In this document: one piece after another, positions 16,547 through 33,504 of the stretch
Layout of the letters: each line of letters opens with the position of its first letter
Numbering within the stretch: the stretch's first letter is position 1
Notes under the pieces: model-generated
The model's database searches: none
What the model saw: only the letters and a program-made list of their open reading frames with translations
What the model was told of the DNA's origin: nothing
Source of the DNA: Gammaproteobacteria bacterium
GTDB taxonomy: Bacteria > Pseudomonadota > Gammaproteobacteria > Ga0077536
Direction of reading: 5' to 3'
NCBI GenBank assembly: GCA_016209015.1
Contig: JACQWY010000038.1
Location: 62,001 to 126,000, forward strand
DNA length: 64,000 nucleotides
Position numbers and translations under genes: made by a program

Positions 16547-17905
16547 ATGCCGACCCGTTACGTCCTGCCGGTTCCCGCCGGCGCGCCCCGCCGTCTCGCC
16601 GCCGCCTGGCTTGCGCTCGGCATCAGCGCCTTGATCGCCTCCGGCCTGCTCGCGCTACTGCTCGTGCTCTCGCGCACGCCGGCCCTGCAGGACCTCGTGC
16701 CGTGGGTCGCTTCGTTCAAGACCGCGCTCGTCATCCACGTCGATCTCTCGGTGCTGATCTGGTTCCTGGCCTTCGCGGGCGCCATCTGGAGTCTCGCCTC
16801 GAGCGAGCGGTTCGCGATCTGGGGCTGGCTCGCGTTCGTCGCCGCGGCGCTCGGCACGGCCGTGATGGCGCTCTCGCCGTTCACGAGCCGCGAGCCCATG
16901 CCGCTCCTCAACAATTACATCCCGGTATTGCAGCAGCCGGTCTTTCTCGCGGGGCTCGCGCTCGTCGGGGTCGGCTTCGCGCTCGTCATCCTGCGCACAC
17001 TCGTCGTCGGTGTGCCGCGGGCGCTGCCGGAGGGCGATGCGCGCGCCCTCGCCTGCGGCACGTATGGCGCGGCGGTGATCGCCGCGCTGTCGCTCGGGGG
17101 ATTCGTGTGGTCGTGGCTCGTGTTGCCGGGCGAGCGCGCCGGACAGGCGTACTACGAGCTGCTGTTCTGGGGTCCAGGTCACGTCCTGCAATTCACGCAC
17201 GGCCTCCTGGTGTGCGTGGTGTGGTTGTGGCTCGCGGGTGCGGGCGGCGCACGACGCGTGGCCACCGCCCGTCTCGTCGGGACGGCGTTCGTGTTCGCGG
17301 CCCTGCCCGTCGTGCTCGCCGGGCCGCTCCTCTACGCGCTGGCCACGCCGGGCACCGGGCCGTTCCAGCTCGGCATGACGACGCTCATGCGCTTCGGCCA
17401 TCTCGCGATGCTGCCCGTCGCCGCGTGCGCCGTCGCAGCGCTGTTCGGCGTGCGCGGCGCGGATACGCCGCAACGCTCCGTGCATGCCGCGTTGCTGTGG
17501 TCGATCGGTCTCTTCGCGGTGGGGGGGATCCTCGGCTTCCTCATCCAGGGCGTGAACGTCGTGATCCCCGCGCATTACCACGGCGCGATCGTCGGCGTGA
17601 CGCTCGCCTACATGGGACTGACGTATCACCTGCTGCCGCGCCTGGGCTTCGCCGCGCCGTCTGAACGTTTCGCGTACTGGCAGCCCTTCCTCTATGGCGG
17701 CGGTCAGTTCCTGCACGTCCTGGGCCTCGCCTGGTCCGGGGCGCACGGCGTGCAGCGCAAGGTCGCCGGCGCGGCGCAAGCACTTCACACCCCGGCGGAG
17801 ATCTTCGGCATGGCGCTCACGGGTCTCGGCGGCACGCTCGCCGTCGCGGGCGGCGTGTTGTTCCTGGTGTTGACGGTGCACGCGATCGCGAAGCGACCGC
17901 GCTAG
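16547..17905 (+). CDS. Haem-copper oxidase subunit I-like membrane protein lacking CuB ligands
   Basis: This 452-residue protein has about a dozen hydrophobic segments and resembles haem-copper oxidase/NorB subunit I. His64 in a TM2-like helix (ALVIHVDLSVLIWF) and the HxH pair at His343/His345 in a TM10-like helix (IPAHYHGAIVGVTLAYMGL) correspond to haem ligands. The TM6 element is present as GPGHVLQF (His212), but the position of the cross-linked Tyr is Phe216, and no HisHis pair for CuB exists anywhere in the protein. It is therefore unlikely to reduce oxygen. It ends four bases from the convergent SCO gene. Its function is unknown; haem transfer, oxidase assembly or sensing are possibilities. 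Confidence 0.72.
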   Translation: MPTRYVLPVPAGAPRRLAAAWLALGISALIASGLLALLLVLSRTPALQDLVPWVASFKTALVIHVDLSVLIWFLAFAGAIWSLASSERFAIWGWLAFVAAALGTAVMALSPFTSREPMPLLNNYIPVLQQPVFLAGLALVGVGFALVILRTLVVGVPRALPEGDARALACGTYGAAVIAALSLGGFVWSWLVLPGERAGQAYYELLFWGPGHVLQFTHGLLVCVVWLWLAGAGGARRVATARLVGTAFVFAALPVVLAGPLLYALATPGTGPFQLGMTTLMRFGHLAMLPVAACAVAALFGVRGADTPQRSVHAALLWSIGLFAVGGILGFLIQGVNVVIPAHYHGAIVGVTLAYMGLTYHLLPRLGFAAPSERFAYWQPFLYGGGQFLHVLGLAWSGAHGVQRKVAGAAQALHTPAEIFGMALTGLGGTLAVAGGVLFLVLTVHAIAKRPR

Positions 17906-17909
17906 ACCG

Positions 17910-18557
17910 CTAATTGCCGTCGGCGACCCGGAGAAAGTTCGCCGCCATGGTCGCGGAATCGAACGGCGGCGAGAACAGCATGCGCAGACTGCCCTCGGGC
18001 CCGACGGCGAGGACGTTCGAGGAGTGGTCGACGAGATAGGTCGGGCCGTCCGCCTCGTGCCGCTCGTAGTGGATGCCGAGCGGTTTCGTGAGCGCCTGCA
18101 GCGCCGCATCGTCGCCCGTCACGCCGAGGAATCCCCTGCCGAAATAATCCACGTATTTGCCGAGCTTGTCCGGCGTGTCGCGTTTCGGATCGACGGAGAC
18201 GAAGACGATCTGCGCGGCCGCGGCCCGCTCGGGCGGCAGGCGCTTCAGCATCTGGCCGAGCACTTTCAGCGTCGTCGGGCAGACGTCGGGACACGACGTA
18301 TAGCCGAAGTAGAAGAACGTCCAGTGGCCGGCGAGGTTCGCGGCAGTGAAAGGCCTGCCGAACTGATCGGTGAGCGCGAACGGCGCGAGCGGCGGACCTG
18401 CTTCGAGGACGGTGGCGGAATCGAACTGCACGGCCGAGATCGGCGCCTCCGGCCCCGCCCGATAGGCGCGCCACAGCAAAGCGATGCCGAGCCCGAGCAG
18501 CATGAAACCGGCATAAGCGACGATCTGGCGTAGCGGGAGCGAGGGCTTCGCGTTCAT
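17910..18557 (-). CDS. SCO1/SenC copper chaperone
   Basis: SCO proteins deliver copper to the CuA site of cytochrome c oxidase. The 215-residue protein has one N-terminal membrane anchor (about 11-30) and a thioredoxin fold facing the periplasm with the metal site CPDVCP (Cys89, Cys93) and the distal ligand His178 in LVDHSSN. Family blocks FTLTD-like FALTDQFGRPF and FFYFGYTSCPDVCP are clear. It lies downstream of ctaD on the same strand but behind a terminator. Confidence 0.93.
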   Translation of the reverse strand: MNAKPSLPLRQIVAYAGFMLLGLGIALLWRAYRAGPEAPISAVQFDSATVLEAGPPLAPFALTDQFGRPFTAANLAGHWTFFYFGYTSCPDVCPTTLKVLGQMLKRLPPERAAAAQIVFVSVDPKRDTPDKLGKYVDYFGRGFLGVTGDDAALQALTKPLGIHYERHEADGPTYLVDHSSNVLAVGPEGSLRMLFSPPFDSATMAANFLRVADGN

Positions 18558-18656: not shown

Positions 18657-20243
18657 TCAGGAACGGGCGCCGTAACCGTACGGATGCCAGTCCGCATCGA
18701 CCTTCGGGATCTCCGGCCAGTTGCCGTGCGGCGGCGGGCTGACCGTCGTCCACTCCAGCGACTTCGAACCCCAGGGATTCGGACCGGCTTCCTTGCCATT
18801 GATCGCACCCATGATCCAGTTGACGACTGCGAGTGCGAAGCCGACACCGATGAAGGCGGTGCCGAACGTCATCAGCTCGTGCGAGGCCTGAAACTGCGGG
18901 AAGTGCGAGTAGTCGTAGTAGCGGCGCGGCATGCCCTGCACGCCAATCACCATCATCGTCCAGAACACCATGTTCACGCCGATGAAGGTCAGCCAGAAAC
19001 CGATCTTGCCGACGGTCTCGTTGTACATCCTGCCCGTCATCTTCGGGAAGAAGTAATAGACGCCGCCGAAGATCGCGAACGTACCGGCAACCGCCATCAC
19101 GTAGTGGAAATGACCCACGACGTAGTAAGTCTGCGCGAGATGCACGGTCAGCGAGGTCACGGCGAGCGGAATCCCGGTCAGACCACCGATCAGGAACAGG
19201 AACACCACGCCGAGCGCATAGAGCATCGGTGTCCTGAAGTCGATCGCGCCTTTGTACAGCGTGCCGACGAGTCCGATGATCGTAAGGCCTACGGGTACGC
19301 TGATTGACAGCGTCGTGACCATCGTTCCGATACGCAGCCAGTCCGGCATACCCGTGACGTACAGGTGGTGCACCCAAACCTCACCCGACAACAGCACGAT
19401 GCCGCCGAAACCGCCGAACACGACCATGTTGTAGTTGAATACACGGTTCCGGGCGAATGTCGCGACAATCTCGAAGACCACACCGATGAACGGCATGTAG
19501 ATGATGTACACCGCCGGATGTGAGTAGAACCAGAACAGGTTCTGATACGTCAGGATGTCGCCGCCGGTAGACGGATCGAAGAAATGGGTGCCGAGGTACT
19601 TGTCGAACGTGATCAGCGTCACCGCCGTTCCGAGCACCGGCACGAAGATGAGCTGCAGCGCGAAGGCCGCGAGGATGGACCAGACGAAGATGTTGAGCTT
19701 CGACCAAGTCACGCCCGGTGCGCGCATGAAGGACACCGTCGTAAGAAAGTTGACCCCGCCCAGAATCGAAGCAAACCCGAGCAGCAGCACCGTAAATGTG
19801 TAGAACGCGGTGTTGCCCGTCGTCATGACGGAGTACGGCGGATAGCCGGTCCACATCACATCCGGCGGATCCGGGATGAAGAACCCGAGCAGCACGACCA
19901 CGACGCCGGCGTAGAACAGCCACACGCTCAGTGCGTTCAGGCGTGGGAACGCGACGTCCTTCGCGCCGATCATGAGCGGCACGCAGTAGTTCGCGAAGAA
20001 GCCGGTCAGCGCGGGGATCTGGAAGCCCAGGATCATCACCGCACCGTGGTTGTACAACCAGACGTTGTACTGCGACGGATTGTTCGTGATGGTCGGGCCG
20101 AGATGCGAAAGTTCGAGACGCATCAGGACGGCCATCAGACCCGCGATCGCGAACGCGGCCATGGATCCGATGAGATAGAGAATACCGACCCGCTTGTGGT
20201 CGGTGGTGAAGATCCACTCTTTGGCGGTTTGAGCAAAACTCAT
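18657..20243 (-). CDS. ctaD: Cytochrome c oxidase subunit I, A2-type
   Basis: This is the catalytic subunit of an aa3-like oxidase (528 residues, about twelve membrane helices). Haem and copper ligands are visible: YNHGAVMIL in TM2, the CuB His and cross-linked Tyr in WFYSHPAVYI, the CuB pair in VWVHHLYVTGM, and VGHFHYVMA in TM10. The YSHPAVY form replaces the E of the GHPEVY motif, which marks the A2 subgroup of haem-copper oxidases. It follows ctaC by 11 bases in the operon. Confidence 0.95.
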   Translation of the reverse strand: MSFAQTAKEWIFTTDHKRVGILYLIGSMAAFAIAGLMAVLMRLELSHLGPTITNNPSQYNVWLYNHGAVMILGFQIPALTGFFANYCVPLMIGAKDVAFPRLNALSVWLFYAGVVVVLLGFFIPDPPDVMWTGYPPYSVMTTGNTAFYTFTVLLLGFASILGGVNFLTTVSFMRAPGVTWSKLNIFVWSILAAFALQLIFVPVLGTAVTLITFDKYLGTHFFDPSTGGDILTYQNLFWFYSHPAVYIIYMPFIGVVFEIVATFARNRVFNYNMVVFGGFGGIVLLSGEVWVHHLYVTGMPDWLRIGTMVTTLSISVPVGLTIIGLVGTLYKGAIDFRTPMLYALGVVFLFLIGGLTGIPLAVTSLTVHLAQTYYVVGHFHYVMAVAGTFAIFGGVYYFFPKMTGRMYNETVGKIGFWLTFIGVNMVFWTMMVIGVQGMPRRYYDYSHFPQFQASHELMTFGTAFIGVGFALAVVNWIMGAINGKEAGPNPWGSKSLEWTTVSPPPHGNWPEIPKVDADWHPYGYGARS

Positions 20244-20254
20244 CTACGGTCTCC

Positions 20255-21025
20255 TCAGTTCAGCGCGACGTTCTTTTTGGCGTCGGCCAGCTTCGCAGCT
20301 TCGCCGTCGTACCACTTGGTGAAGTCCTGATCCGGCATGATCACCAGCTTGCCCATCATGTACGAGTGCATGATGCCGCAGTAGGCCGCGCAGGAAATGA
20401 CGTGCTCACCCGGCTCTTTCGGGCTGAACCAGAGATACGTCACGCGTCCGGGCATCGAATCCTCTTTCACGCGGAAGTCGGGGATGAAATGGCTGTGAAT
20501 GGTATCGCGGCTCGTCATGCGCAGCATGATCGGCTTGCCCGCAGGCACGCGCAGCTCGTTCTGGGCGTGCACGCCGTTCGGGTAAACGTAGTCCCAACTG
20601 TACATGCCGCTCTCGAGCTTGATCTCCATGCGCTCGGCCGGCACCTGGCGATACATGTTCCAGAGGTTCCAGCCCTTCGCGGCGACGAACAGGTCGTCGG
20701 ACAGGAAGACGAACACCGGGATGACGGTCCAGCCCACGGCGAGCGCCGCGTTGAACTTCGGCGGCGTCCCCTCCTGGTCGGGCGAACGGCGGCGATATTT
20801 GACGAGCAGGTAAGCGGTCACGAGGGCGAAGATGACGCCCATGATCGTGATGTCGATGATCACTTCCCGCCACAGCTCGTTCCAGCCCTCCGCCGCATCC
20901 TTGATCTTCGCGACGGCGGCTTCGTGCTCTCCGGCGCCAGCGCTGGTCCACGCGACCGGCAGCGAGGCCGCGAGCAGCACCCCGATCCGGAGCGACAGCG
21001 TCTGGGCCAATGATCTAGCTGACAT
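20255..21025 (-). CDS. ctaC: Cytochrome c oxidase subunit II (CuA)
   Basis: The 256-residue subunit carries the CuA centre that accepts electrons from cytochrome c. It has a signal/first hydrophobic segment, a second pair of membrane helices (about 52-70 and 88-108) and a cupredoxin domain. CuA ligands are visible as the first His in TIHSHFIPDF and C212, C216, H220, M223 in CAAYCGIMHSYM. The Glu normally between the two cysteines (CxExC) is Ala214; this residue binds copper through its backbone, so CuA may still form. The start overlaps the preceding SCO gene by 11 bases. Confidence 0.92.
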   Translation of the reverse strand: MSARSLAQTLSLRIGVLLAASLPVAWTSAGAGEHEAAVAKIKDAAEGWNELWREVIIDITIMGVIFALVTAYLLVKYRRRSPDQEGTPPKFNAALAVGWTVIPVFVFLSDDLFVAAKGWNLWNMYRQVPAERMEIKLESGMYSWDYVYPNGVHAQNELRVPAGKPIMLRMTSRDTIHSHFIPDFRVKEDSMPGRVTYLWFSPKEPGEHVISCAAYCGIMHSYMMGKLVIMPDQDFTKWYDGEAAKLADAKKNVALN

Positions 21026-21863
21026 GAGACAACCCCCCTAACTTTTTCCGCTTGAATACGAACGTAGAAAGAATCACCAAGGCGACGCCGAACACCAGCG
21101 AGCACAGGCCCGCGATGGCCGAATAATTCGGGGTGTAACGGCCTTCCTTGAAGTTGTAGCTGAAGCACACCGCGCTCAGGAGGTCCGCGAGCTGCGTGGT
21201 GTTCGCAATCTTGCCCCAGTCGGCATCGATCAAGGCGAGCTTCACCGCATCGCCGTCGACACGCGTGCCGTAGATGTAGCGCGCCACGCGCCCTTCCGGA
21301 GTGAGGAAGACCAGGGCGTTCGGATGCATGAACACCTGGTCCGCACGCGACCAGAAGTAGCGATAGCCGATGGTCGAGCTGAGCGCCTGGATACCGGTCT
21401 CGCCGGCCGCCGTCACCGCCATCTTCCAACCGGCGCGCATGTCCTCGGGGATGCGCGCCTTGCCGACGAACTGCTGCGCGGAGGCCGTCGAGTCGTTCTT
21501 GTCGAACGACACGGTCAGAACCCGGAAATCCTTGCCGATCTGGAAGCGATCCTGCCTGCGCAGGGCTTTCATGAGGCTTTGGTTCATCGTCGGGCACGAA
21601 CCGTCACAGCTGTAGTACGACATCACCAGGATGACCGGTTTGCCGAGCATGTCGCCCATCGTGAAGCGCTGCCCGCCTGCATCCTGGAACGCGAGGTCCT
21701 TCGGCAGACGTTCGCCGAGATGCGCGGCTTCGTCGATCTGCATGATGCCGGGATCGATGGTCGATTCCGGCATCACGCCGCCTTCCGCCGCGAATGCCTG
21801 TGCCGCGAACATGAACGCGCCGCACGTGAGCACGCGGCGCCAGAGTCTCGACGAGCTGATCAT
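21015..21863 (-). CDS. SCO1/SenC-like protein with C-terminal membrane tail
   Basis: This 282-residue protein has a signal peptide (about 1-26), a SCO thioredoxin-fold domain with the metal-site cysteines in YYSCDGSCPTM (Cys86, Cys90, spaced CxxxC) and a candidate His ligand at 180 (FMHPNAL), and an unusual C-terminal transmembrane helix (about 255-275) ending in KRKK. It lies inside the oxidase operon between ctaE and ctaC, so a role in copper insertion into this particular CuA is likely. The ATG at 21863 has only a weak ribosome site. Confidence 0.88.
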   Translation of the reverse strand: MISSSRLWRRVLTCGAFMFAAQAFAAEGGVMPESTIDPGIMQIDEAAHLGERLPKDLAFQDAGGQRFTMGDMLGKPVILVMSYYSCDGSCPTMNQSLMKALRRQDRFQIGKDFRVLTVSFDKNDSTASAQQFVGKARIPEDMRAGWKMAVTAAGETGIQALSSTIGYRYFWSRADQVFMHPNALVFLTPEGRVARYIYGTRVDGDAVKLALIDADWGKIANTTQLADLLSAVCFSYNFKEGRYTPNYSAIAGLCSLVFGVALVILSTFVFKRKKLGGLSHVS

Positions 21864-21916
21864 GACAGCGCGGGTGACCGTGCGATTCCGCTGGACGTCC
21901 TGCGATCCCAGCCGTC

Positions 21917-22675
21917 TTACCAGTAGTAGACCTGCGAGACCACGAACAGCCAGATGATGTCGACGAAGTGCCAGTACAGCGACACCGTCTTCACGAAGCC
22001 GTCGTTGATCTTGCCCATGAGCGCCGGGATCAGTACGGCGACGATGCCGCAGAGACCGAGCAGAACGTGCGCGCCGTGGAAGCCGGTGATCGAATAGAAC
22101 GTCGTGCTGTAGATGTTGCGGCCGTACGTGAAGCCCTCGCTCATCAGGTGATGCCATTCGATCCCTGACATGCTCACGAACGCGAGGCCGAGCAGAATGG
22201 TGACGACCCACCAGCGCAGGAACGTCGAGCGATTGCCGTGCTCGAGGCCGACTTCGGCGGCGTGGGCGGTGAAGCTCGAGGACACGAGGAAGACAGTCAT
22301 GATCGCCGGCATCAACTGCGGAATCGCGGGCGTGCCTTCCGGCGGCCAGGACACCGCGGTCAGACGGTTGAACCAGTAGTTCGCGAAGAAGGACATGAAG
22401 ATCATCGCCTCGGCGAGGATGAACCAGCCCATCGCCGGGCGGCTCAGGCCCTCACCGCCACCGATCGCCTGGCTCGTCCAGCCCGCGGCTCCGCCAATGA
22501 TCATCGGCGCACCGAGGCCGAGCGAGAGGATCGCGAGCATCGGTTTGTGATAGACGAAATTCAGGGTGAACGACAGCGGGAGGAAGAACAGAATCCCGAA
22601 CGCGATGACGAGCGGCCAGACACTGGTGTCCCAATGCGCACCGTGGTGTTCATGTACCGCGACATGATCCGACAT
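21917..22675 (-). CDS. ctaE: Cytochrome c oxidase subunit III
   Basis: The 252-residue protein has seven hydrophobic helices and the subunit III signatures WFILAEAMIFMSFFANYWFNR and TFYSITGFHGAHVLLGL, ending WLFVVSQVYYW. Subunit III stabilises proton pumping and lies in the inner membrane. It is the first gene of the operon ctaE-sco-ctaC-ctaD, an order different from the common ctaCD...E. GGGGGAG precedes the ATG. Confidence 0.94.
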   Translation of the reverse strand: MSDHVAVHEHHGAHWDTSVWPLVIAFGILFFLPLSFTLNFVYHKPMLAILSLGLGAPMIIGGAAGWTSQAIGGGEGLSRPAMGWFILAEAMIFMSFFANYWFNRLTAVSWPPEGTPAIPQLMPAIMTVFLVSSSFTAHAAEVGLEHGNRSTFLRWWVVTILLGLAFVSMSGIEWHHLMSEGFTYGRNIYSTTFYSITGFHGAHVLLGLCGIVAVLIPALMGKINDGFVKTVSLYWHFVDIIWLFVVSQVYYW

Positions 22676-23711: not shown

Positions 23712-24233
23712 CTAGCGAAGTCCTCGCGCGCGCTGCACGGCGCTCAATATGCCGCGCAGGATCTCGAGCGGCGGCGGCGGGCAACCCGGAACGACGACAT
23801 CGACCGGAATGACGTTCGACACCGCGCCGCGGCTCGCGTAGCTCTCCCCGAATATTCCGCCGCACGCCGCGCAATCTCCGACCGCCACGACGAGCTTCGG
23901 AGCCGGCACGGCCTCGAAAGTCCGCACGAGTGCGATTTCCATGTTCCGCGTAACGGGCCCCGTCACGAGCAGCATGTCGGCATGGCGCGGGCTCGCCACG
24001 AACTTCATGCCCAGGCCTTCGAGGTTGTAGTAGGGATTGTTGAGCGCGTGAATCTCGAGCTCGCAACCATTGCAAGACCCGGCATCGACGGCGCGGATCG
24101 CGAGCGCCTGGCCGAGGATGTCGAGGATTTCGCGCTGGATCGTCTGCGCCTGCTGCTGCGGCTCGTCGCCGGCGTCGGGCGCCGGTTCGGTGACATTGCC
24201 GACTTTCGCGATACGCTGCAGTATGGAAAACAT
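23712..24233 (-). CDS. Ehr/hydrogenase-4-like small subunit (NuoB/HyfI-like)
   Basis: This 173-residue protein belongs to the 20-kDa subunit family of complex I and group 4 hydrogenases. Cysteines able to bind a [4Fe-4S] cluster lie in SCNGCE (54, 57), GDCAACGG (121, with 124 extra) and PGCPPPP (151). Residues 66-98 include the NPYYNLEGLGMKFVASPRHAD block typical of these subunits. It is the last gene of a six-gene operon, its ATG overlapping the stop of the large-subunit gene by one base. The cluster suggests an electron path, but its partner large subunit cannot bind nickel. Confidence 0.88.
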   Translation of the reverse strand: MFSILQRIAKVGNVTEPAPDAGDEPQQQAQTIQREILDILGQALAIRAVDAGSCNGCELEIHALNNPYYNLEGLGMKFVASPRHADMLLVTGPVTRNMEIALVRTFEAVPAPKLVVAVGDCAACGGIFGESYASRGAVSNVIPVDVVVPGCPPPPLEILRGILSAVQRARGLR

Positions 24234-25783
24234 CAGAGGTCCTGCCCCGAGTAGCTCAGGTTGAACGACTTGTTGATGAGCGGAAAGTCCGGAACGATGT
24301 TGCCGATCACCGCGTACTCGAGCAGCGGCCAGTTGTGCCACGAGGGATCGTGACAATGGCATCGCCGGATCGCACCGTCGGCGTCGAGCTCGAGGCCGAC
24401 GAAGATCTGCCCGCGCCAAGCTTCGACCCACCCCGCGCCGCGTGCGGCCGCCGGAACGCGCGTCAACGGTGTCGCGATCGCCCCTTCCGGCAAGCGAGCG
24501 CAGAGCGTCGCGATCAGACGCAGCGACTCGGCGAGCTCGTCGAAACGCACGTTCACGCGCGCCGCGACGTCGCCATTGCGGCGTACGGCACGCTGCACGG
24601 CGAGCGCATCGTAAGGCGGGGTCGGATGATCGCAACGCAGATCGGCGGGTTGACCGCTCGCCCGGCCGGCAAGCCCGCAGAGCCCGAGCCTGGTCGCGAG
24701 CTCGGGCGTCACGCGGCCCGTGGTCAGAAAGCGATCCTGCAGTCCGGCGTGGCCGTCGTAGACCTTCCGCAAACCTTCGACTTCCGCGCCGAGCGCCTTG
24801 CAGTGGTCGATCATCGCCGTGAGCGCGGCAGTATCGACGTCGCACGCGACGCCGCCCGGCACGACGCGGTCCATCATGAAGCGGTGCCCGAAGGCCGCCG
24901 ACGACGCGCGCAGCCAGTCCTCCTTCAGCCGCGAGAACTGCGCGAGACCGAAAGCGAACGCGGCGTCGTTGCCGAGCGCGCCGAGATCGCCGAGATGATT
25001 CGCGACGCGCTCGCGTTCCAGCATCATGGCGCGCAGCGCCGCGGCGCGCTGTGGGATCTGCAAATCAGCCGCACTCTCGAGCGCCATGCAATACGCCCAC
25101 GCATACGCGACGGTGGAATCGCCCGACACGCGGCCGGCGAGCCGGTGCGCTTCCGCCGGCGCGAGGCTCTCGAAGCGCTTCTCGATGCCCTTGTGCACGT
25201 AGCCGAGGCGTTCCTCCAGGCGCAGCACTTTCTCGCCCACTGTCGAGAACCGGAAATGACCGGGCTCGATGATCCCGGCGTGTACCGGGCCGACAGGGAT
25301 CTCGTGCACGCCCTCGCCGTCGACGGGCACGAACGCATAACTCTCACCGCCGAATTCCGGAAAACGCGACGACGGTTCGGCATCGTGGCGGAGCGGGAAG
25401 AAATCCGGTGGCCAGGTGCCGTGACGCAGCCACGGCCGCTGATCGCGCGCGCCGGCCGCATGCAGCCCGAGCAGATCGCGCACCGCGCGCTGCATGCGTC
25501 CTGCGGTCGGGAAATGCGCAGTGAGATCGGGGTAGGCCTCGTCCTCGTCGGCGAGCGGCAGACCGATCCACACCAGCCCCTCGGGGATCGCGTACGCTGC
25601 ATTCACGACGTATGCCTCGCCGAGCGGACGACGGTCCGTGGCCCACAGCGACACCAGGCGTGCCCCGCCCGCGCGCACCGCCTCGGCCGCATTGCGCCAG
25701 CCCTCGGCATCGACGAGACCATGGCGGATCGGCAGCGGCGCGGGCAGTGATTCGAGGCGCGTGTCGAAGCAGGAGAGCAGCAT
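24233..25783 (-). CDS. Ehr/hydrogenase-4-like large subunit without Ni-binding cysteines (HyfG/NuoCD-like)
   Basis: This 516-residue protein fuses a 30-kDa (NuoC-like) N-terminal region, about 1-150, to a 49-kDa/hydrogenase large-subunit region, as HycE and HyfG do. The place of the first Ni-binding CxxC reads RVSGDS (Arg218-Ser223), and the C-terminal CxxC reads HDPSWHN (near 478-484), so all four nickel cysteines are gone. The C-terminal VPDFPLINKSFNLSYSG stretch remains. This rules out [NiFe] catalysis and fits the Ehr group. AGGAGG lies just before the ATG at 25783. Confidence 0.85.
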   Translation of the reverse strand: MLLSCFDTRLESLPAPLPIRHGLVDAEGWRNAAEAVRAGGARLVSLWATDRRPLGEAYVVNAAYAIPEGLVWIGLPLADEDEAYPDLTAHFPTAGRMQRAVRDLLGLHAAGARDQRPWLRHGTWPPDFFPLRHDAEPSSRFPEFGGESYAFVPVDGEGVHEIPVGPVHAGIIEPGHFRFSTVGEKVLRLEERLGYVHKGIEKRFESLAPAEAHRLAGRVSGDSTVAYAWAYCMALESAADLQIPQRAAALRAMMLERERVANHLGDLGALGNDAAFAFGLAQFSRLKEDWLRASSAAFGHRFMMDRVVPGGVACDVDTAALTAMIDHCKALGAEVEGLRKVYDGHAGLQDRFLTTGRVTPELATRLGLCGLAGRASGQPADLRCDHPTPPYDALAVQRAVRRNGDVAARVNVRFDELAESLRLIATLCARLPEGAIATPLTRVPAAARGAGWVEAWRGQIFVGLELDADGAIRRCHCHDPSWHNWPLLEYAVIGNIVPDFPLINKSFNLSYSGQDL

Positions 25784-25785
25784 GC

Positions 25786-27240
25786 TCAACCTCCTATCAT
25801 CTTCGCCGCCTGGCGATACCACTCGGCGAGGTACGGCGGAATGTAGAGCCCGAGCATGAGCCCGAGTCCGAGATGGACGAAGGTCGGCAGCAGCGCCGGC
25901 GGATGCGCGAGCGGTTGCATCGAGCTCTCGCCGAACACCATCGGCTGCACGCGCCGGAACACGGACGCGAACGCGACGCCGAGCGCGAGCAGCAGCAGCG
26001 GCGTCGCCCACGGCTGCACGCGCATCGCGGTCGTGAGGATCAGGAATTCACTCGCGAAGACGCCGAACGGCGGCATGCCGAGGATGGCGAGCGTGCCGAG
26101 CATGAGCCCCCAGCCCACTGTCGGGCTGATGCGCAGCAGGCCGCGGATCTCGCTCATGATCTGCGTGCCGGCATTCTGCGCGGCGTGACCCACGGCGAAG
26201 AAGATCGCCGACTTGATCAGCGAATGCACCGTCATATGCAGGAGGCCGGCGAAATTCGCGACCGGCCCGCCGACGCCGAACGCGAACGCCATGAGGCCGA
26301 CGTGCTCGATCGACGAATAGGCGAACATGCGCTTCACGTCGCGCTGACGGGAGATGAAGAAGGCGGCCGCGACGACGGACAGCAGTCCGAAGCCCATCAT
26401 CAGATTGCCGGCGAGGTGCGTATGCAGCGCGCCGTCAGTCAGCACCTTGCAGCGGAGGATGGCGTAGAGCGCGACGTTGAGCAGCAGGCCCGACAGCACC
26501 GCGGAGATCGGCGTGGGACCTTCGGCATGCGCGTCCGGCAGCCAGTTGTGGACGGGCACGAAGCCCGCCTTCGTGCCGTAGCCGAGGATCATGAACACGA
26601 ACGAGAGCGTCAGGATATTCGGTTCCAGCTGGCCCTTCACCGCGTCGAGATTCGTCCACAGCAACGCTCCGCCCTCCGAGCCGAGCACGCGTTCGGCCGC
26701 CATGTAGAGGAGCACCGTGCCGAACAGTGCCTGCGCGATGCCGACGCCGCAGAGGATGAAATACTTCCACGCCGCCTCGAGGCTCGCCGCCGTGCGATAG
26801 ACGCTCACGAGCAGCACGGTCGCGAGCGTCGCCGCCTCCATCGCGACCCACAGGATGCCCATATTGTTCGTCATGAGCGCGAGCAGCATCGTGAAATTGA
26901 AGAGCTGATACGCGCTGTGATAGAGCCGCATGCGCCGCGGCGTCATCTTGCCGTGGTCCCGCTCGATGCGCATGTAGGGCCGCGAGAAGAGCGCCGTCGT
27001 GAAGCCGACGAACGCCGTCAGCGTCACCAGGAAGACGTTCAGCGGATCGATGAAGAATGCCTTGTTCCAGACCATGAACGGTCCGCTCTCGATGACGTGC
27101 GTCATGAGCACGAGCGCGGCCACGAGCGTCGCGAAACTGAACGCCGCGTTGACGTCGCGCGCCGCGTCGCGATGCCCGACGAAGGCGAGCAGGAGACCGC
27201 CGGCGAGCGGGAGACCGAGGACCGAGGCCAGGGCTTCCAC
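25786..27240 (-). CDS. Ehr antiporter-like membrane subunit (HyfF/NuoN-like)
   Basis: This 484-residue, roughly fourteen-helix protein is of the NuoL/M/N Mrp-antiporter family. It keeps the channel-lysine and loop segments YGTKAGFVPVHNWLPDAHAEGPTPISAVLSGLLLN and the helix-8/12 region KRMFAYSSIEHVGLMAFAFG. Such subunits translocate protons or Na+. The GTG start at 27240 follows AAGGAGGAATGA, a strong ribosome site, and directly abuts the stop of the hyfE-like gene. Confidence 0.9.
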   Translation of the reverse strand: MEALASVLGLPLAGGLLLAFVGHRDAARDVNAAFSFATLVAALVLMTHVIESGPFMVWNKAFFIDPLNVFLVTLTAFVGFTTALFSRPYMRIERDHGKMTPRRMRLYHSAYQLFNFTMLLALMTNNMGILWVAMEAATLATVLLVSVYRTAASLEAAWKYFILCGVGIAQALFGTVLLYMAAERVLGSEGGALLWTNLDAVKGQLEPNILTLSFVFMILGYGTKAGFVPVHNWLPDAHAEGPTPISAVLSGLLLNVALYAILRCKVLTDGALHTHLAGNLMMGFGLLSVVAAAFFISRQRDVKRMFAYSSIEHVGLMAFAFGVGGPVANFAGLLHMTVHSLIKSAIFFAVGHAAQNAGTQIMSEIRGLLRISPTVGWGLMLGTLAILGMPPFGVFASEFLILTTAMRVQPWATPLLLLALGVAFASVFRRVQPMVFGESSMQPLAHPPALLPTFVHLGLGLMLGLYIPPYLAEWYRQAAKMIGG

Positions 27241-27900
27241 TCATTCCTCCTTGAGACGTTCGAGATGGCGGATGTCCAGGCTGTCGAACTGCTCGCGGAT
27301 CTGGAACATGAAGACACCGAGGATGAGGATGCCGACGAGCACGTCGAGTGCGATGCCGAGCTCGACCACCATCGGCATGCCGTAGGTCGCAGCCGTCGCC
27401 GCGAAGAACAGCGCGTTCTCCATCGACAGGAAGCCGATGACCTGCGGGATCGCCTTGGCACGCGTGATCATCATCATGAAGGAGAGCAGCACGCAGGCGA
27501 GGGCGATGCCGAGCGTGCCGCGCGCGACCGTCGCCGAGAGCTTCGCGATCGGCAGCGCCAAGTTGAACGCGAAGATCACGAGCCCGATGCCGACGATCAT
27601 CATGGTCGGGATGTTGATCAGGGTCTCGATGTCCCAGCGCACGTTCAGGCGGTCGATCGCCCGGTGCAGCAGCAGCGGAATGGCCACGACTTTCAGCAGA
27701 AAGGTCAAGCCGGCGGAGAAATAGAGGTGCGGCTGATTCGTGGCGTAACCGACGAGTATCGTGGCCGCGACGAGCGTCGCGCCCTGCAGGGTGAAGAGAT
27801 GGATCAGCGAGAGGATGCGGCGCTGCGAGATCATCGCGAACGACAGCATGAGCAGCGCCGAGGCGAGCAGATTCACGAATTGCGAGAGCAGAGCGTTCAT
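27241..27900 (-). CDS. Ehr membrane subunit (HyfE-like)
   Basis: This 219-residue protein has about seven hydrophobic helices and resembles HyfE of hydrogenase-4, which combines features of NuoK and part of an adjacent small subunit (FSMENALFFAATAATYGMPMVVELGIALDVLVG matches the NuoK-like segment with its membrane Glu residues). It lies one base after the hyfC-like stop codon, indicating tight co-translation. Function is inferred from the family: part of the ion-translocating membrane arm. Confidence 0.86.
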   Translation of the reverse strand: MNALLSQFVNLLASALLMLSFAMISQRRILSLIHLFTLQGATLVAATILVGYATNQPHLYFSAGLTFLLKVVAIPLLLHRAIDRLNVRWDIETLINIPTMMIVGIGLVIFAFNLALPIAKLSATVARGTLGIALACVLLSFMMMITRAKAIPQVIGFLSMENALFFAATAATYGMPMVVELGIALDVLVGILILGVFMFQIREQFDSLDIRHLERLKEE

Positions 27901-27901
27901 C

Positions 27902-28849
27902 TCAGGTTCCGAGCAGGATGTGGACCAGCATGCCGATCACGGCGAGCAGGAACGCCGCGGCGAGGAATTCGGGCACCCGGAAGATGCGCATCTTCGCCGA
28001 CACCGTCTCGAAGACTGCGAGCGCGATACCGCCGATCGCGAGCTTGAGCACGAGCACCGGCAGCGCCAGGATCAGCGCGAGCGGTGCCTGTGCCTCGGCC
28101 ACGCCCCACGGGAAGAAGAGCGCGAGGCCGATGCAGGAATACGCGAAGAGCTTGAGGCTCGCCGCCCATTCGATGAGCGCGAGATGGCGTCCCGAATACT
28201 CGAGGATCATCGCCTCGTGGATCATGGTGAGCTCGAGATGCGTCGTCGGATTGTCGACCGGCACGCGCGCGTTCTCGGCGAGCGACACCATGGTGAAGGC
28301 GACGCTCGCGAACGCGAGGCTCGGATAGATGGCGAGCTCGCGGTGTGCGAGCGTCTCGACGATCGTCGTCAGTGACGTCGACTTCGAGATCAGCGAGGCG
28401 CTGAACAGCACCATCAGCAGCGCCGGCTCGGCGAGGAAACCGATCAGCATCTCGCGGCGCGCGCCGAGCGTGCCGAACGAGGTGCCGATGTCCATCGCGG
28501 CGAGCGAGATGAACACCCGCGCGAGCGCGAACAGGCCGACGAGCGCAATCGCGTCCGCCGCCGGTGCGAGCGGCAGGTCCGTCGAGAGCGTCGGCACGAT
28601 GCCGCAGGCGAGCACCATGCAGCCGAACACGATGTAGGGCGCGGCACGGAAGAGCGGCGAGGCGTGCTCGGCGACGACGGCCTCTTTGATGAAGAGCTTG
28701 TGCAGAGTGCGGAACGGCAGGAAGAGGCTCGGGGCCGTGCGATTCTGCAATCGCGCACGCCACTGGTTCACCCAGCCGGTGAGCAGCGGCCCGAGCAGCA
28801 GGGCGACCAGGATTTCGAGCGCCTGCGAGGCGAAGGCGAGCGCGTTCAC
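27902..28849 (-). CDS. Ehr membrane subunit (HyfC/NuoH-like)
   Basis: This 315-residue protein is of the NuoH/HycD family that anchors the peripheral arm. It shows the conserved charged loops around LQNRTAPSLFLPFRTLHKLF, MDIGTSFGTLGARREMLIGFLAEPAL and VDNPTTHLELTMIHEAMILEYSGR. It starts with GTG at 28849, which overlaps the stop of the hyfB-like gene (GTGA), and the long upstream frame is not coding. About eight membrane helices are predicted. Confidence 0.9.
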   Translation of the reverse strand: MNALAFASQALEILVALLLGPLLTGWVNQWRARLQNRTAPSLFLPFRTLHKLFIKEAVVAEHASPLFRAAPYIVFGCMVLACGIVPTLSTDLPLAPAADAIALVGLFALARVFISLAAMDIGTSFGTLGARREMLIGFLAEPALLMVLFSASLISKSTSLTTIVETLAHRELAIYPSLAFASVAFTMVSLAENARVPVDNPTTHLELTMIHEAMILEYSGRHLALIEWAASLKLFAYSCIGLALFFPWGVAEAQAPLALILALPVLVLKLAIGGIALAVFETVSAKMRIFRVPEFLAAAFLLAVIGMLVHILLGT

Positions 28850-30870
28850 GAGCGCACCAGCACGAGCATCGCGAGCAGCGTGATGAAGCTGTAGAGCAGA
28901 TACACCGCGATCCGGCCCTGCTGCAGCGTGCCGATGAGCCGCGCCGCGCGCTCGACGACCGCGGCGATCGGCAGATACAGCCAGTGCCAGAAGTGGTCGG
29001 CGATCGTCACGTGATAACGCGGCGCCTCGTCGCCGGGATCCGGCAGCTCGCGCGTCATACGGAAGAACGGCTCGAAGATCTGGCGTATCGGCTGGCCGAA
29101 GCCCTCGGCCGTGTCCTGCATGCGCGCGGTCTGCCAGGGATAACCGCAGTCCCAGGGCGCTGCGCGGCGCACGCGTCCGTGGTAGAGGAGGCGCACGACG
29201 AGAAAGGCGAGCAGGAAGCACGCCGCGACGCCGAGCAGGAAGATGATAGGTCCGTAGCTCGCGCGATCGACCGCGACCGGCACGAGCAGCCAGCCGTGAC
29301 CCGCCACGTTGTCACCGAGGCCGGCGTGCACGAGCAGCCGCGTCACGGGATCGATGATCTGGATGAATTGTTCGGGCTGCAGTCCCAGCGCGATGCACCC
29401 CATGACGAGCCAGGCCATGCCGCCGCGCTCCCAGGGGCCGGCATCGCGCGCGCGCTGGAGCTTCTCCTCGCGCGGCTGGCCGAGAAAGATGATGCCGAAG
29501 AACTTCACCATCGTGTAACCGGCGAGCGCCGCGACGAGCGCGATGAGCGCCGCGACGACCGGGATCAGCATGTTGAGGAACGAATCCGGCAAGCCCGGCG
29601 TGAACAGGAAGCTCTGCAGCAGCAGCCATTCGGACACGAATCCCGAGAACGGCGGCAGGCCCGCGCTCGCGAGCACGCCGATCAGTGTCACCCACGCGAT
29701 CCACGGCGTGAAGCGGATGAGCCCGCCGAGGCGCCCGAGATTGCGTTCGCCCGTCGCATGGAGCACGGACCCCGTGCTGAGGAACAGCAGGCTCTTGAAG
29801 AAGGCATGGCTCGCGACGTGATAGAGGCTCGCGGTCAGCGCGAGCGCCGCGAGAGGCTTCATGCCGTAGGACGAGAACACCACGGCAAGCCCGATGCCCG
29901 CGCAGAGCAGCCCGATGTTCTCTATGGACGAGTACGCCAGCAGGCGTTTCATGTCGACCTGCGCCGCGGCGAACACGACGCCGAACAGCGCGCTCGCGAG
30001 CCCGAGCGCGAGCATCAGCACGCCCCACCACCAGCGCTGCGTCTGCAGGAGATCGAAGCTCACGCGGAGGATGCCGTAGATCGCGGTCTTCAGCATCACG
30101 CCGCTCATGAGCGCCGAGACCGGCGAGGGTGCGGCGGGATGCGCTTCCGGCAACCACACGTGCAAGGGCAGCAGGCCCGCCTTCGCGCCGAAACCGAACA
30201 GCGCGAGCAGGAAGGCAGCCGAGCTCCAGAACGAAGTGAGATGCTGGGCGCGCATGTTCGCGAACGTGTAATCGCCGGTGTTCGCCTGCAGCACGCCGAA
30301 GCAGAGCAGGATCGCTATCGCGCCGATGTGCGCGACGAGGAGATAGAGATAGCCGGCCTCGCGGATTTCGGGAATGCGATGGTTCGCGGTGACGAGGAAG
30401 AACGAGGACAGCGCCATCGTCTCCCAGGCGACCATGAACACATACGCATCGTCGGCGAGCACGACGAGCGCCATGGTCGCGAGAAAGGCGTGGTACTCGA
30501 GGCAGATGAGCCCGGGCGGCGTGCCCTCCCCGCGCCCGAAGTAGCCCGCCGCATAGACGCTCACGCCGGCCCCGGTCGCACCGATCACGAGCAGGAAGAA
30601 CGAGGAGAGCCCATCGAGCCGGAGATGGAACGGCAGACCGGGGAGACCGAGCGGCAGCACCGCCGTCGCCGGCTCCTGGAACACCGCCGTCAGGGCGATG
30701 CCGGAGAGCAGGAGACCCAGGAGTCCGCCGAGCGGGAACAGCACCTTCGTCACGAAGCCGAAGCGCCGCAGCGCGAATACGCCGGTCGCGCCGAGCGCGA
30801 GCCAGGCGGTGACGACCGCGAGCACGCCGTCGAGCTGCTGCCAGTGGGCAAAGTCGGGGAGCAGGCTCAT
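28846..30870 (-). CDS. Ehr antiporter-like membrane subunit (HyfB/NuoL-like)
   Basis: The first gene of the operon encodes 674 residues, the size of HyfB. It has about sixteen hydrophobic helices, the antiporter core FGAKAGLLPLHVWLPEAHPAAPSPVSALMSG and VDMKRLLAYSSIENIGLL, and a C-terminal extension with RMTRELPDPGDEAPRYHVTIADHFWHWLY as in HycC/HyfB. It would provide an ion channel of the complex. The ATG at 30870 is chosen from homology; upstream sequence of 261 bp holds the likely promoter. Confidence 0.9.
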   Translation of the reverse strand: MSLLPDFAHWQQLDGVLAVVTAWLALGATGVFALRRFGFVTKVLFPLGGLLGLLLSGIALTAVFQEPATAVLPLGLPGLPFHLRLDGLSSFFLLVIGATGAGVSVYAAGYFGRGEGTPPGLICLEYHAFLATMALVVLADDAYVFMVAWETMALSSFFLVTANHRIPEIREAGYLYLLVAHIGAIAILLCFGVLQANTGDYTFANMRAQHLTSFWSSAAFLLALFGFGAKAGLLPLHVWLPEAHPAAPSPVSALMSGVMLKTAIYGILRVSFDLLQTQRWWWGVLMLALGLASALFGVVFAAAQVDMKRLLAYSSIENIGLLCAGIGLAVVFSSYGMKPLAALALTASLYHVASHAFFKSLLFLSTGSVLHATGERNLGRLGGLIRFTPWIAWVTLIGVLASAGLPPFSGFVSEWLLLQSFLFTPGLPDSFLNMLIPVVAALIALVAALAGYTMVKFFGIIFLGQPREEKLQRARDAGPWERGGMAWLVMGCIALGLQPEQFIQIIDPVTRLLVHAGLGDNVAGHGWLLVPVAVDRASYGPIIFLLGVAACFLLAFLVVRLLYHGRVRRAAPWDCGYPWQTARMQDTAEGFGQPIRQIFEPFFRMTRELPDPGDEAPRYHVTIADHFWHWLYLPIAAVVERAARLIGTLQQGRIAVYLLYSFITLLAMLVLVRS

Positions 30871-31108
30871 CGTTCCGCGAAGCACCGCTCCCGAACGGGC
30901 GCCGCGTGGCCGGTCACCGGTCGGGGACCGGGTCGGCACGCCCGGAAGCGGGCGCCAAACGGCAGGGCCATGATCAAGAAGGACCTCCAGGAGTTTCGCG
31001 GCCGGTTCACCTGCTGCAGGCGACGAGCCCCGGCGCGAACCGGCGGTCACGACGAACGGCCGGTATCACGTGGGTTCGCATTATATGAAACTATGATTCC
31101 ATTTCAAT

Positions 31109-31123
31109 GTTAATTTTATTAAC
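31109..31123. promoter_or_regulatory. palindromic operator for the RHH protein (candidate)
   Basis: GTTAAT-TTT-ATTAAC is a perfect 6-bp inverted repeat in a markedly AT-rich stretch (about 31080-31135) of an otherwise GC-rich region. It ends eight bases before the ATG of a ribbon-helix-helix protein gene, the usual place for an autoregulatory site. Confidence 0.6.
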
Positions 31124-31131
31124 ATAATTGA

Positions 31132-31326
31132 ATGGAGAACCGCACTGCCCGCCTCACCGTGCTCATCGATCCGGAGAAGAAACGGATTTTCGAAGAGACC
31201 TGCGCGCGTTTCGACCTGACGCCGTCGCAGGTCGTGCGCAGATTGATACGGCAGTACATCCTCGACAACGCGGGCGATCGCCCGCTGCCGGAGTGGCTGC
31301 GCACGCGCGAAGCCGCCGACCGGTAG
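31132..31326 (+). CDS. Small ribbon-helix-helix DNA-binding protein
   Basis: This 64-residue protein reads as a single ribbon-helix-helix (CopG/Arc-like) domain: a beta strand ARLTVLIDPEKKRIF, then helix-turn-helix FEETCARFDLTPSQVVRRLIRQYILDN. These proteins bind palindromic AT-rich DNA as dimers, alone or as antitoxins. No toxin gene is adjacent, and it lies between the Ehr operon promoter and a greB-like gene, so a local regulator is likely. It ends nine bases from the convergent greB-like gene. Almost no ribosome site precedes its ATG. Confidence 0.75.
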   Translation: MENRTARLTVLIDPEKKRIFEETCARFDLTPSQVVRRLIRQYILDNAGDRPLPEWLRTREAADR

Positions 31327-31335
31327 CCGCGCCGC

Positions 31336-31848
31336 TCAGGCGCTCGCGTCCGGCTCCGCCTCGTAACGCAAACCGACAATCTCGAGCTCGAGCGCGCCTT
31401 GCGGCCGCGGCCACACCACCGTGTCACCGGGCGCGTGACCGATGAGCGCGCGCGCGAGCGGCGAGATCCAACTGATGCGTCCGCGCTCGGGATCGGTCTC
31501 GTCCTCACCGACGATCGTGAACGTCCAGCGTCTGTCGTCCTCGTCGAGCAGTTCCACCGTCGCGCCGAAGCGCACGTCCGCGAGCGCTGGCGAGCCGACG
31601 TCGACGGGCACCGCCTCCTCGAGGAGCGCCACGAGATCGCGGCGGCGGATCTTGAGGCGGCGGATTTCCGCCTTCTGCGCAAAGTCCTCCCCGGCCCCCG
31701 CGGCGGCGAGCTCGCGCTGCAACTGCTCGAGCTCGCGCTGGCGTGCGACGAGCCCGCCGCGCGTGATGTAACAGGGCTGGACGCGCGGCGCGCGCGGCGG
31801 CAGCTCCTCGTCCTCGCCGTCAGACTCCTTGACGAACGCGCGACTCAT
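31336..31848 (-). CDS. greB: GreA/GreB-family transcription elongation factor
   Basis: Gre factors rescue backtracked RNA polymerase. The 170-residue product shows a coiled-coil N-terminus (GGLVARQRELEQLQRELAAA; FAQKAEIRRLKIRRRDLVALLEEA) and a FKBP-like C-terminal domain with WTFTIVGEDETDPERGRISWISPLARALIG. Length and KAE-like loop resemble GreB. An acidic, Glu-rich N-terminal 20 residues is extra. Four bases separate it from the glycosyltransferase gene at 31852, with which it may share a transcript. Confidence 0.85.
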   Translation of the reverse strand: MSRAFVKESDGEDEELPPRAPRVQPCYITRGGLVARQRELEQLQRELAAAGAGEDFAQKAEIRRLKIRRRDLVALLEEAVPVDVGSPALADVRFGATVELLDEDDRRWTFTIVGEDETDPERGRISWISPLARALIGHAPGDTVVWPRPQGALELEIVGLRYEAEPDASA

Positions 31849-31851
31849 CGT

Positions 31852-33504
31852 TCAGCCGTCCGTCACCGGCCGCAGGATCACGAGCTTGTCCTCGTCGCCG
31901 CCGCGCTTGCGGCTCATGAGCTCGGTCACGCCGAAACGCGCCGCGAAGCTCGCGAGCGCCTTGCCGCGCACCACGAGCACGAGGCGCCGCTCCCGCGATT
32001 TCACGAGCAGCTTCTGCACGTCATCGGGGTCTTTCACGGTATGGACGTGCCGCCCCGTGTAATAGACGAAAGGTGCGGCGGTGATGCCCTGGATCGCGAG
32101 CGGCGTATCGGGCCCGAGCTCGGCAGCGGCGCGCGTCGCGAGCGCGTGGAGATCGTAACGCTCGCTGTCCCAGAGGATGCCCTTCTCCGCCGCCACGGTC
32201 CACACCGCCGCCGCAGCGAGCGCGCAGATCACGAGGCTGCCCGTGCGCGACAGGAGCACGCGCTCGGCGTGCAGCACCGTGTAGGCGACCGCCACCACGC
32301 CGAAGAGCACGAAGCCGTCGATGGACGGCGCCTCGGTGAGTCGCGGCGCGTGCCGGATCGCCCACACGCCCGCCGCGACGACGACGACCGCCTGGACGAC
32401 GAGCATGCCGTCGCGAGCCCAAGACCACGCATCGCGCCGCCCGCGATCGAGTGCGCACGTCACGCCGCGCGCGACGAGCAGACAGAGCAGCGGCAACAGC
32501 GGCAGCATGTAGAAATACCGGTACTGGTGACCGAGGCTGAACGCGATCGCCGCGACCAGCACCGGCACGCCGAGCAGCCGCAGCGCCGCACGCTCCTCGC
32601 GCCGCACGAGGCAGGGCACGGCGAGCAGCGCGAGCGGAACCCACGGCACGAGGAGCTGGAGCGGCCGATAGAAGTAATACGGGCTGCCGAAGTGCTTCGC
32701 GTCGGGCACGAGCAGGCTGCCGCCGAGCTGGCTCGTCTGCACGCCGTGACGCCCGACGCCGTGCGCGACGGCCTGCCACCACGGCAGACAGATCGCGGCG
32801 AGGACGGCCGCGCCGAGCAGCGGCCGCAGCACCGCGGCGAGCTCGCGCCACGAACGACCCTCGCGCTTCAGCACGATCACGCTCGCGACGACGAGCATCG
32901 CCGGCACCTGAGGTCCCTTCGTCATGACGGCCGCGCCGTAGGCGAGCCACATCGCGAGGCTGTAGTACCACGCGCCTGGACGCCGGCGTGCGGCGAGCAC
33001 GAACGCGCAATAGCCCGCGGCATTCCAGCACGCATAGAGCATGTCGGGGCGTGCATCGTGGGTATGGCCCGCGAACCCGGCGCTCGTCGCGAGGAGCAGC
33101 GCGGCGAGCGCCGCGGTCGCGCGGCCGTAGATCGCCGCACCCGCCAGCGCGGTGGCGAGCACGAGCCCCGCGCCCGCGAGTATCGACGGCAGCCGGGCCT
33201 GCAAGGGTCCGACGTCCGGCAGTATGCCGAACGCCCCGGCCGCGGCGCCCGCGGCCCAGTAGCTCAACGGCGGCTTCTGCAGACGCGGCTGGCCGTTGAA
33301 GTGCGGCACGAGCCAGTCGCCGCGCGTGGCCATCTCGCGTGCGGTCTGGGCGACGTAGATTTCGTGGGATTCGAGCGGCACGGTCGTGCTGCCCGGCAGG
33401 GCGACGCCGATGCCGAGCACGACGAGCGCCGCGAGCAGCACGCGCCACACGCGCTCGTTCGCGAGCAGCGCGGCGAGCGGTGACCCGGCGGTGGATTCGA
33501 TCAT
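31852..33504 (-). CDS. GT39/ArnT-like membrane glycosyltransferase
   Basis: This roughly 550-residue protein has about twelve membrane helices and the PMT/ArnT-family N-terminal loop with the catalytic acidic residue (PLESHEIYVAQTAREMATRGDWLVPHFNG followed by QKPPLSYWAAG). Such enzymes use polyprenyl-phosphate sugars in the periplasm, for example to modify lipid A with aminoarabinose. The C-terminal soluble domain matches the family. The start at 33504 is chosen by homology; the open frame continues to 33564. Substrate is not predictable. Confidence 0.85.
   Translation of the reverse strand: MIESTAGSPLAALLANERVWRVLLAALVVLGIGVALPGSTTVPLESHEIYVAQTAREMATRGDWLVPHFNGQPRLQKPPLSYWAAGAAAGAFGILPDVGPLQARLPSILAGAGLVLATALAGAAIYGRATAALAALLLATSAGFAGHTHDARPDMLYACWNAAGYCAFVLAARRRPGAWYYSLAMWLAYGAAVMTKGPQVPAMLVVASVIVLKREGRSWRELAAVLRPLLGAAVLAAICLPWWQAVAHGVGRHGVQTSQLGGSLLVPDAKHFGSPYYFYRPLQLLVPWVPLALLAVPCLVRREERAALRLLGVPVLVAAIAFSLGHQYRYFYMLPLLPLLCLLVARGVTCALDRGRRDAWSWARDGMLVVQAVVVVAAGVWAIRHAPRLTEAPSIDGFVLFGVVAVAYTVLHAERVLLSRTGSLVICALAAAAVWTVAAEKGILWDSERYDLHALATRAAAELGPDTPLAIQGITAAPFVYYTGRHVHTVKDPDDVQKLLVKSRERRLVLVVRGKALASFAARFGVTELMSRKRGGDEDKLVILRPVTDG

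Follow-up and report, generated by a model that had tools for sequence, protein, structure and literature searches.

A conserved haem-copper oxidase-like protein without a CuB site and its possible part in respiratory cofactor biogenesis

Context of the P0001 gene

The window, by which we mean the whole 64,000 nucleotide stretch that was analysed, contains on its plus strand an open reading frame that encodes a 452 aa protein, here called P0001, with 12 transmembrane (TM) helices. The frame starts with the ATG at 16547 and stops at 17905 (16547..17905), the same limits as in the first-pass annotation, and its GC contents at codon positions 1, 2 and 3 (0.72/0.51/0.90) are those expected for a real high-GC gene. 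Downstream, on the minus strand, is the gene for a SCO1/SenC copper-chaperone protein (17910..18557; PF02630, 6.5e-41). The two genes are convergent, with 4 bp between the end of the SCO gene and the P0001 stop, and the enoyl-CoA hydratase-type gene upstream of P0001 is divergent. The P0001 gene is therefore monocistronic in the window.

The SCO gene is followed, also on the minus strand, by genes for an A2-type cytochrome c oxidase. These encode subunit I, CtaD (18657..20243; PF00115, 1.2e-129, and TIGR02891), assigned to the A2 type by the YSHPAVY motif read in its sequence; subunit II (20255..21025; PF00116 and TIGR02866 above cut-off), in which the CuA motif was likewise read; and subunit III (21917..22675), assigned from its sequence and from its homologous position in the operons of loci L125 and L128. 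An ORF at 21015..22211 (minus strand) holds a second SCO-like protein (SYYSCDGSCPTM), homologues of which occupy the same position in L125 and L128, and its true start is probably at about 21.86 kb. Thus, P0001 does lie beside a SCO protein and a full A2 oxidase operon, as previously described, but the SCO gene runs on the other strand and P0001 does not form an operon with it.

The genome that includes the window (G000) has a rich haem-copper oxidase (HCO) set of eight PF00115 proteins, P0001 and seven others. Its single CtaA is encoded on another contig. A plasmid origin was ruled out, as there was no match by DNA or by protein.

P0001 has the fold of an HCO subunit I

PF00115 (COX1) matched over the whole length of P0001 (E 7.3e-13, residues 17-412), and at E values up to 1 the Pfam scan returned nothing further except a sub-threshold PTR2 match. 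No NCBIfam family model matched. When the single P0001 sequence was used to query solved structures, there was no close sequence match, and a profile of P0001 found 7deg, an Aquifex oxidase, at 3.3e-5.

The first-pass annotation had proposed structure prediction and comparison with the NorB, ba3 and cbb3 families. AlphaFold2, run on an alignment of 54 sequences of the P0001 family, returned a model with 12 long helices, a pLDDT of 89.8 and a pTM of 0.92. Foldseek ranked the Thermus ba3 cytochrome c oxidase (1EHK, 3S8F) first (TM-score 0.77, approximately 20% identity), and VIA-align gave a Z of 28 over about 420 residues for the same enzyme. All HCO types, including cbb3 and the NO reductase 4XYD (Z 29.1), aligned with the model at Z 28-31. 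The predicted structure is that of a complete HCO subunit I, and with the PF00115 match it identifies P0001 as a subunit I homologue by descent.

Haem ligands are retained and the CuB site is missing

The histidines that ligate the haems in the superfamily are all present. His64 in TM2 (16736..16738) is at the position of a low-spin haem ligand, and His343-Tyr-His345 in TM10 (17573..17581) supplies the proximal ligand positions of the high-spin (H343) and low-spin (H345) haems. His212 in TM6 (17180..17182) is at the position of the first CuB histidine, opposite GH in both 7deg and the sNOR-like family described below. Arg404-Lys405 (17756..17761) aligns with GVPRR in that family, where HCOs have the Arg pair that contacts the haem propionates. 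H64, H212, Q215, H343, H345, R404 and K405 were unvarying in 54/54 aligned relatives, which places the ligand pattern far beyond chance, and the earlier statement that His64, His212, His343 and His345 are kept is borne out. A wider set of about 80 relatives, some of them incomplete sequences, had the same pattern with few divergent or incomplete members.

The rest of the catalytic site could not be found. There is no HH dipeptide anywhere in P0001, and TM7 (residues 241-265, 17267..17341) has no histidine. Two independent profile alignments, one with the sNOR-like family and the other with 7deg, agreed in placing Leu262-Tyr263 (17330-17335) opposite the CuB HisHis of TM7, H212 at the TM6 CuB histidine and F216 at the active-site tyrosine (His+4). 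Gln215 and Phe216 are encoded at 17189..17194. The helix limits are consistent with this, as the HisHis is near the end of TM7 (257-281) in a model of the Tyr-less sNOR-like family and L262-Y263 is near the end of TM7 in P0001; that model had a pLDDT of 76.5 and served for helix limits only. Across the 54 sequence alignment the HisHis site is Leu/Ile-Tyr, and position 263 is Tyr in 40 relatives, His in eight, Ala in five and Phe in one. Hence, the earlier report that P0001 lacks a HisHis pair was upheld, and an alignment placing CuB histidines and a tyrosine in P0001, which would have spoken against it, was not obtained.

Many relatives have an EHH(R) motif at the equivalent of P0001 positions 272-274, which is possibly a surface metal or interaction site. 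It was ruled out as a hidden HisHis pair because it is 11-12 residues past the CuB position, in the TM7-TM8 loop, and is unconserved and absent from P0001.

Comparison with known oxidases and NO reductases

The family nearest to P0001 is a Tyr-less, sNOR-like (NorY-like) subunit I (hhalign probability 99.8%, E 1.5e-30, 27% identity). The label 'sNOR-like' is based on loss of the tyrosine, retention of HisHis, a CuA subunit and SCO neighbours rather than on a tree with reference NorY. The sNOR has been proposed as a B-type HCO with NorS, NorY and SenC, and its role as an NO reductase is debated (PMC6967387; PMC3772326). P0001 and the sNOR-like subunit I share the fold, the haem ligands, GHxxQ in TM6 and the absence of the active-site tyrosine. 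However, the CuB HisHis (H277-H278) is still present in the sNOR-like protein, which is accompanied by a CuA subunit II, while P0001 has Leu-Tyr in TM7 and no adjoining subunit II of its own. The TM6 motif also differs, GHVLQF in P0001 and GHSSQQ in the sNOR-like protein. Phe216 does occupy the active-site tyrosine position, as had been noted, but the missing tyrosine is not a loss specific to P0001, as the nearest relatives that bear HisHis are also Tyr-less.

Compared with Thermus ba3, P0001 lacks two of the three CuB histidines and the cross-linked tyrosine found at His+4 of TM6 in A and B type O2 reductases. Like the cNOR and qNOR enzymes (NorB, e.g. 4XYD), it has the HCO fold and no active-site tyrosine, but it has neither HisHis nor the glutamate of the FeB site. 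Of the three-His metal-B site of NO reductases, whether FeB with Glu or CuB, only H212 is left. CtaA/COX15 and CcsA/ResB, which are frequent genomic neighbours of the P0001 family and are also haem-handling membrane proteins, belong to other families; P0001 matched neither PF02628, the haem A synthase model, nor PF01578.

Nothing relevant to a CuB-less HCO homologue or a norSY-senC-orfX cluster turned up among the papers searched, and 'subunit I-like' and 'novel assembly' had no match in a review of the assembly proteins of bacterial oxidases (PMC9145763).

P0001 belongs to an old and widespread family

When 84,980 species genomes were scanned, 66 relatives of P0001 were found. The carriers are Burkholderiales, other Beta- and Gammaproteobacteria, Magnetococcales, Mariprofundaceae and Verrucomicrobia. 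In a class-wide sample the family profile matched 46/369 genomes, one of them (G096) weakly. In a tree, the P0001 family was set apart from the Tyr-less subunit I proteins at full support, and P0001 itself branched close to the base of the proteobacterial members (branch length 1.04). Four divergent members (L050, L120, L124 and L127) formed a single clade (SH-aLRT 96), here called the ccs clade.

A recent copy of the neighbouring A2-type CtaD was ruled out as the source of P0001, as the hhalign probability was only 2.9%. As the ligands are invariant over a wide taxonomic range, the family appears to be functional. The suggestion that P0001 is a degenerate oxidase was not sustained, since about 80 relatives in several phyla keep the same pattern, and membership of an old, conserved family without CuB describes P0001 better than recent degeneration does.

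Gene neighbourhoods of the relatives

The commonest setting is an operon that includes a CuA-bearing subunit II, a Tyr-less subunit I (GHSSQQ, HisHis kept), a UbiA/CtaB-type prenyltransferase, SCO, a cytochrome b-2Fe2S-FNR fusion, a protein of approximately 170 aa and a cytochrome b-4Fe4S-FlpD fusion, with the P0001-type gene last. A gene for a CtaA/COX15-like protein sometimes comes after it, directly so in L009, L010 (Quisquiliibacterium transsilvanicum DSM 29781) and L023. The L009 cluster has an A2-type operon where the sNOR-like genes would otherwise be.

In genomes that lack an sNOR-like oxidase (L112, L118, L119, L121, L125 and L126), the P0001-type gene is still found with aa3 operons and assembly genes, the partners being CtaB, CtaA, SCO, COX1-3 and SURF1-like or CtaG-like genes. 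The SURF1-like and CtaG-like labels, and most Ccm labels used below, are from reading of the sequences rather than from family searches. In at least seven genomes the P0001-type gene has CtaA directly next to it, in the same orientation in G191 and G301 and divergent in G043, G265, G351, G370 and G382. Altogether, at least one oxidase or oxidase-biogenesis gene was found within the flanks of 37/43 loci with full flanks; L114, L117 and L123 are among the few carriers without such neighbours.

Members of the ccs clade are in CcsA/ResB cytochrome c biogenesis loci with no oxidase subunits nearby. At L050:7854-9995 the P0001-type domain is fused to TPR repeats and is followed by Ccm genes, and in L124 the P0001-type gene is followed by one for a TPR protein. 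The L050 cluster, with ResB, CcsA and Ccm genes, has both cytochrome c maturation systems side by side.

Several further arrangements were seen. L128 includes a second, very divergent P0001-type copy (161 bits) in a COX2-CtaD operon, and the sNOR-like type is present in that genome as well. One Mariprofundaceae genome has a gene for a CuA-bearing subunit II immediately ahead of a divergent P0001-type gene, without an intervening catalytic subunit I (L056:7364-9395), and a complete sNOR-like operon is elsewhere in the same genome (L138:3879-12866). The operon in which cytochrome b fusions of two kinds (b-2Fe2S-FAD/NAD reductase and b-4Fe4S-FlpD, not both at every locus) accompany the Tyr-less B-type HCO is conserved in L015:1815-7967, L011, L014, L049 and others, and was seen in Betaproteobacteria, Gammaproteobacteria, Magnetococcales and Verrucomicrobia. 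It is a possible NADH- or ferredoxin-fed respiratory module. The protein of approximately 170 aa, which sits between the cytochrome b fusions and the P0001-type gene, represents a family with no Pfam match and the motif FSHAG...C...PNMR...C.R.RSPV (L015:7440-7967, L058:7321-7824 and the C-terminus of L070:12815-15004). In Verrucomicrobia it is apparently fused to the cytochrome b-4Fe4S protein.

Co-occurrence with CtaA

CtaA was present in 40/42 carriers from the main clade and in 197/324 other genomes (Fisher p 1.6e-6, with relatedness ignored). None of the three ccs-clade carriers sampled had CtaA. Family A oxidases were matched in 311/369 genomes of the class, and co-occurrence with them says little because such matches are common in the class anyway.

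A haem-binding helper of cofactor biogenesis?

As the CuB site has been lost from the P0001 family, reduction of O2 or NO at a binuclear centre is not expected. All the proximal haem ligands (H64/H345 and H343) have been kept, as has the Arg/Lys pair for the propionates, and because of this we infer from the sequence that P0001 very probably binds two haems. His212 would face the distal side of the second haem and, with CuB gone, may ligate that haem directly. The former catalytic site would then have become a second bis-His site, used for electron transfer or for holding haem. P0001 could hold haem for, or pass electrons to, a haem-handling step, which would be that of haem A synthase CtaA in the main clade and that of CcsA/ResB in the divergent one, and in this way it may help the oxidase nearby to mature.

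The genomic settings recur around the biogenesis of oxidases and of cytochrome c and have haem handling in common, and they speak for an accessory that supplies haem or electrons while cofactors are made. We infer, at about even odds (a probability of roughly 0.5), that P0001 is a CuB-less, probably dihaem accessory of respiratory cofactor or oxidase biogenesis that handles haem or electrons. More tentatively, loss of CuB may have converted an oxidase subunit I into a dihaem protein with bis-His ligation that acts as a redox partner of CtaA or CcsA/ResB or relays haem to them. Recruitment for haem transfer or assembly had been suggested by the first-pass annotation, and gains support from the gene contexts elsewhere (CtaA, CtaB, SCO, aa3, SURF1-like and CtaG-like genes; CcsA/ResB/Ccm) and from the co-occurrence with CtaA, though not from co-transcription with the oxidase operon here. 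The monocistronic gene in the window and the location of the only CtaA on another contig count against a biogenesis role, and the adjacency to CtaA and CtaB may only reflect their general nearness to oxidases.

The main rival is that P0001 is an electron-transfer subunit, a dihaem wire that forms a membrane complex with the cytochrome b-iron-sulfur fusions and an sNOR-like or aa3 oxidase and conducts electrons between quinol, CuA and haem. Its place as the last gene of the conserved operon, the CuA subunit II directly upstream in L056 and the permanent retention of all ligands would suit this, and 35/54 carrier genomes checked also have the Tyr-less oxidase, in many cases within an operon that includes the cytochrome b fusions and the P0001-type gene as well. 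However, this oxidase is absent from 19/54, including P0001's own genome, where a partner oxidase of this type is ruled out because no Tyr-less sNOR-like subunit I was found and where there was also no close homologue of the cytochrome b-4Fe4S fusion. Where such partners are missing, the P0001-type gene is alone or with assembly genes, and in the ccs clade there are no oxidase subunits nearby. We regard the electron-transfer role as possible but rather doubtful.

A haem-only enzyme, in which an open haem at His343 reacts with NO, O2 or peroxide in the absence of CuB, with help from Gln215 or Tyr263, is unlikely. The high-spin haem ligand is kept, the invariant Q215 and the common Y263 are near the old active site, and there is kinship to Tyr-less NOR-like enzymes, but the metal-B ligand set is gone, Y263 is unconserved (40/54) and the NOR-type Glu is absent at His+4. 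It is highly improbable that P0001 is a sensor of O2/NO or haem that regulates the neighbouring oxidase genes. Haem ligands kept without catalysis and a position adjoining oxidase operons could be so explained, but no signalling domain is present, the one fusion found is to TPR repeats in a cytochrome c biogenesis cluster, and the sensing role once put forward has found no specific support. Least credible of all is that P0001 is a relic without function that this genome has retained by chance. A relic would suit the single gene, its fairly long branch and the lack of the operon partners that its relatives have, but the frame is open with strong coding bias, every invariant residue is intact and the family is conserved across phyla.

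If the biogenesis role is correct, oxidase maturation would gain a new participant, which might be a redox partner of haem A synthase, and P0001 would clearly exemplify how the fold of a respiratory enzyme can be put to new use in a haem protein without catalytic activity. Were it specifically a relay, an oxidase fold would be helping to build oxidases and cytochromes. Broad annotation by PF00115 counts P0001-type proteins, which have no such metal site, as oxidase or NO reductase subunits, and counts of terminal oxidases and NO reductases in metagenomes can therefore be inflated.

A hydrogenase-4/complex I-like cluster in the window

A gene cluster related to hydrogenase-4 and complex I occupies 23712-33500 of the window, on the minus strand. 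The large-subunit ORF of this cluster (24233-26011) seemingly lacks the NiFe cysteine motifs (GRVSGDS is present, with no DPCxxC), and from its sequence it is perhaps a second homologue of a respiratory enzyme without its active-site metal in the window.
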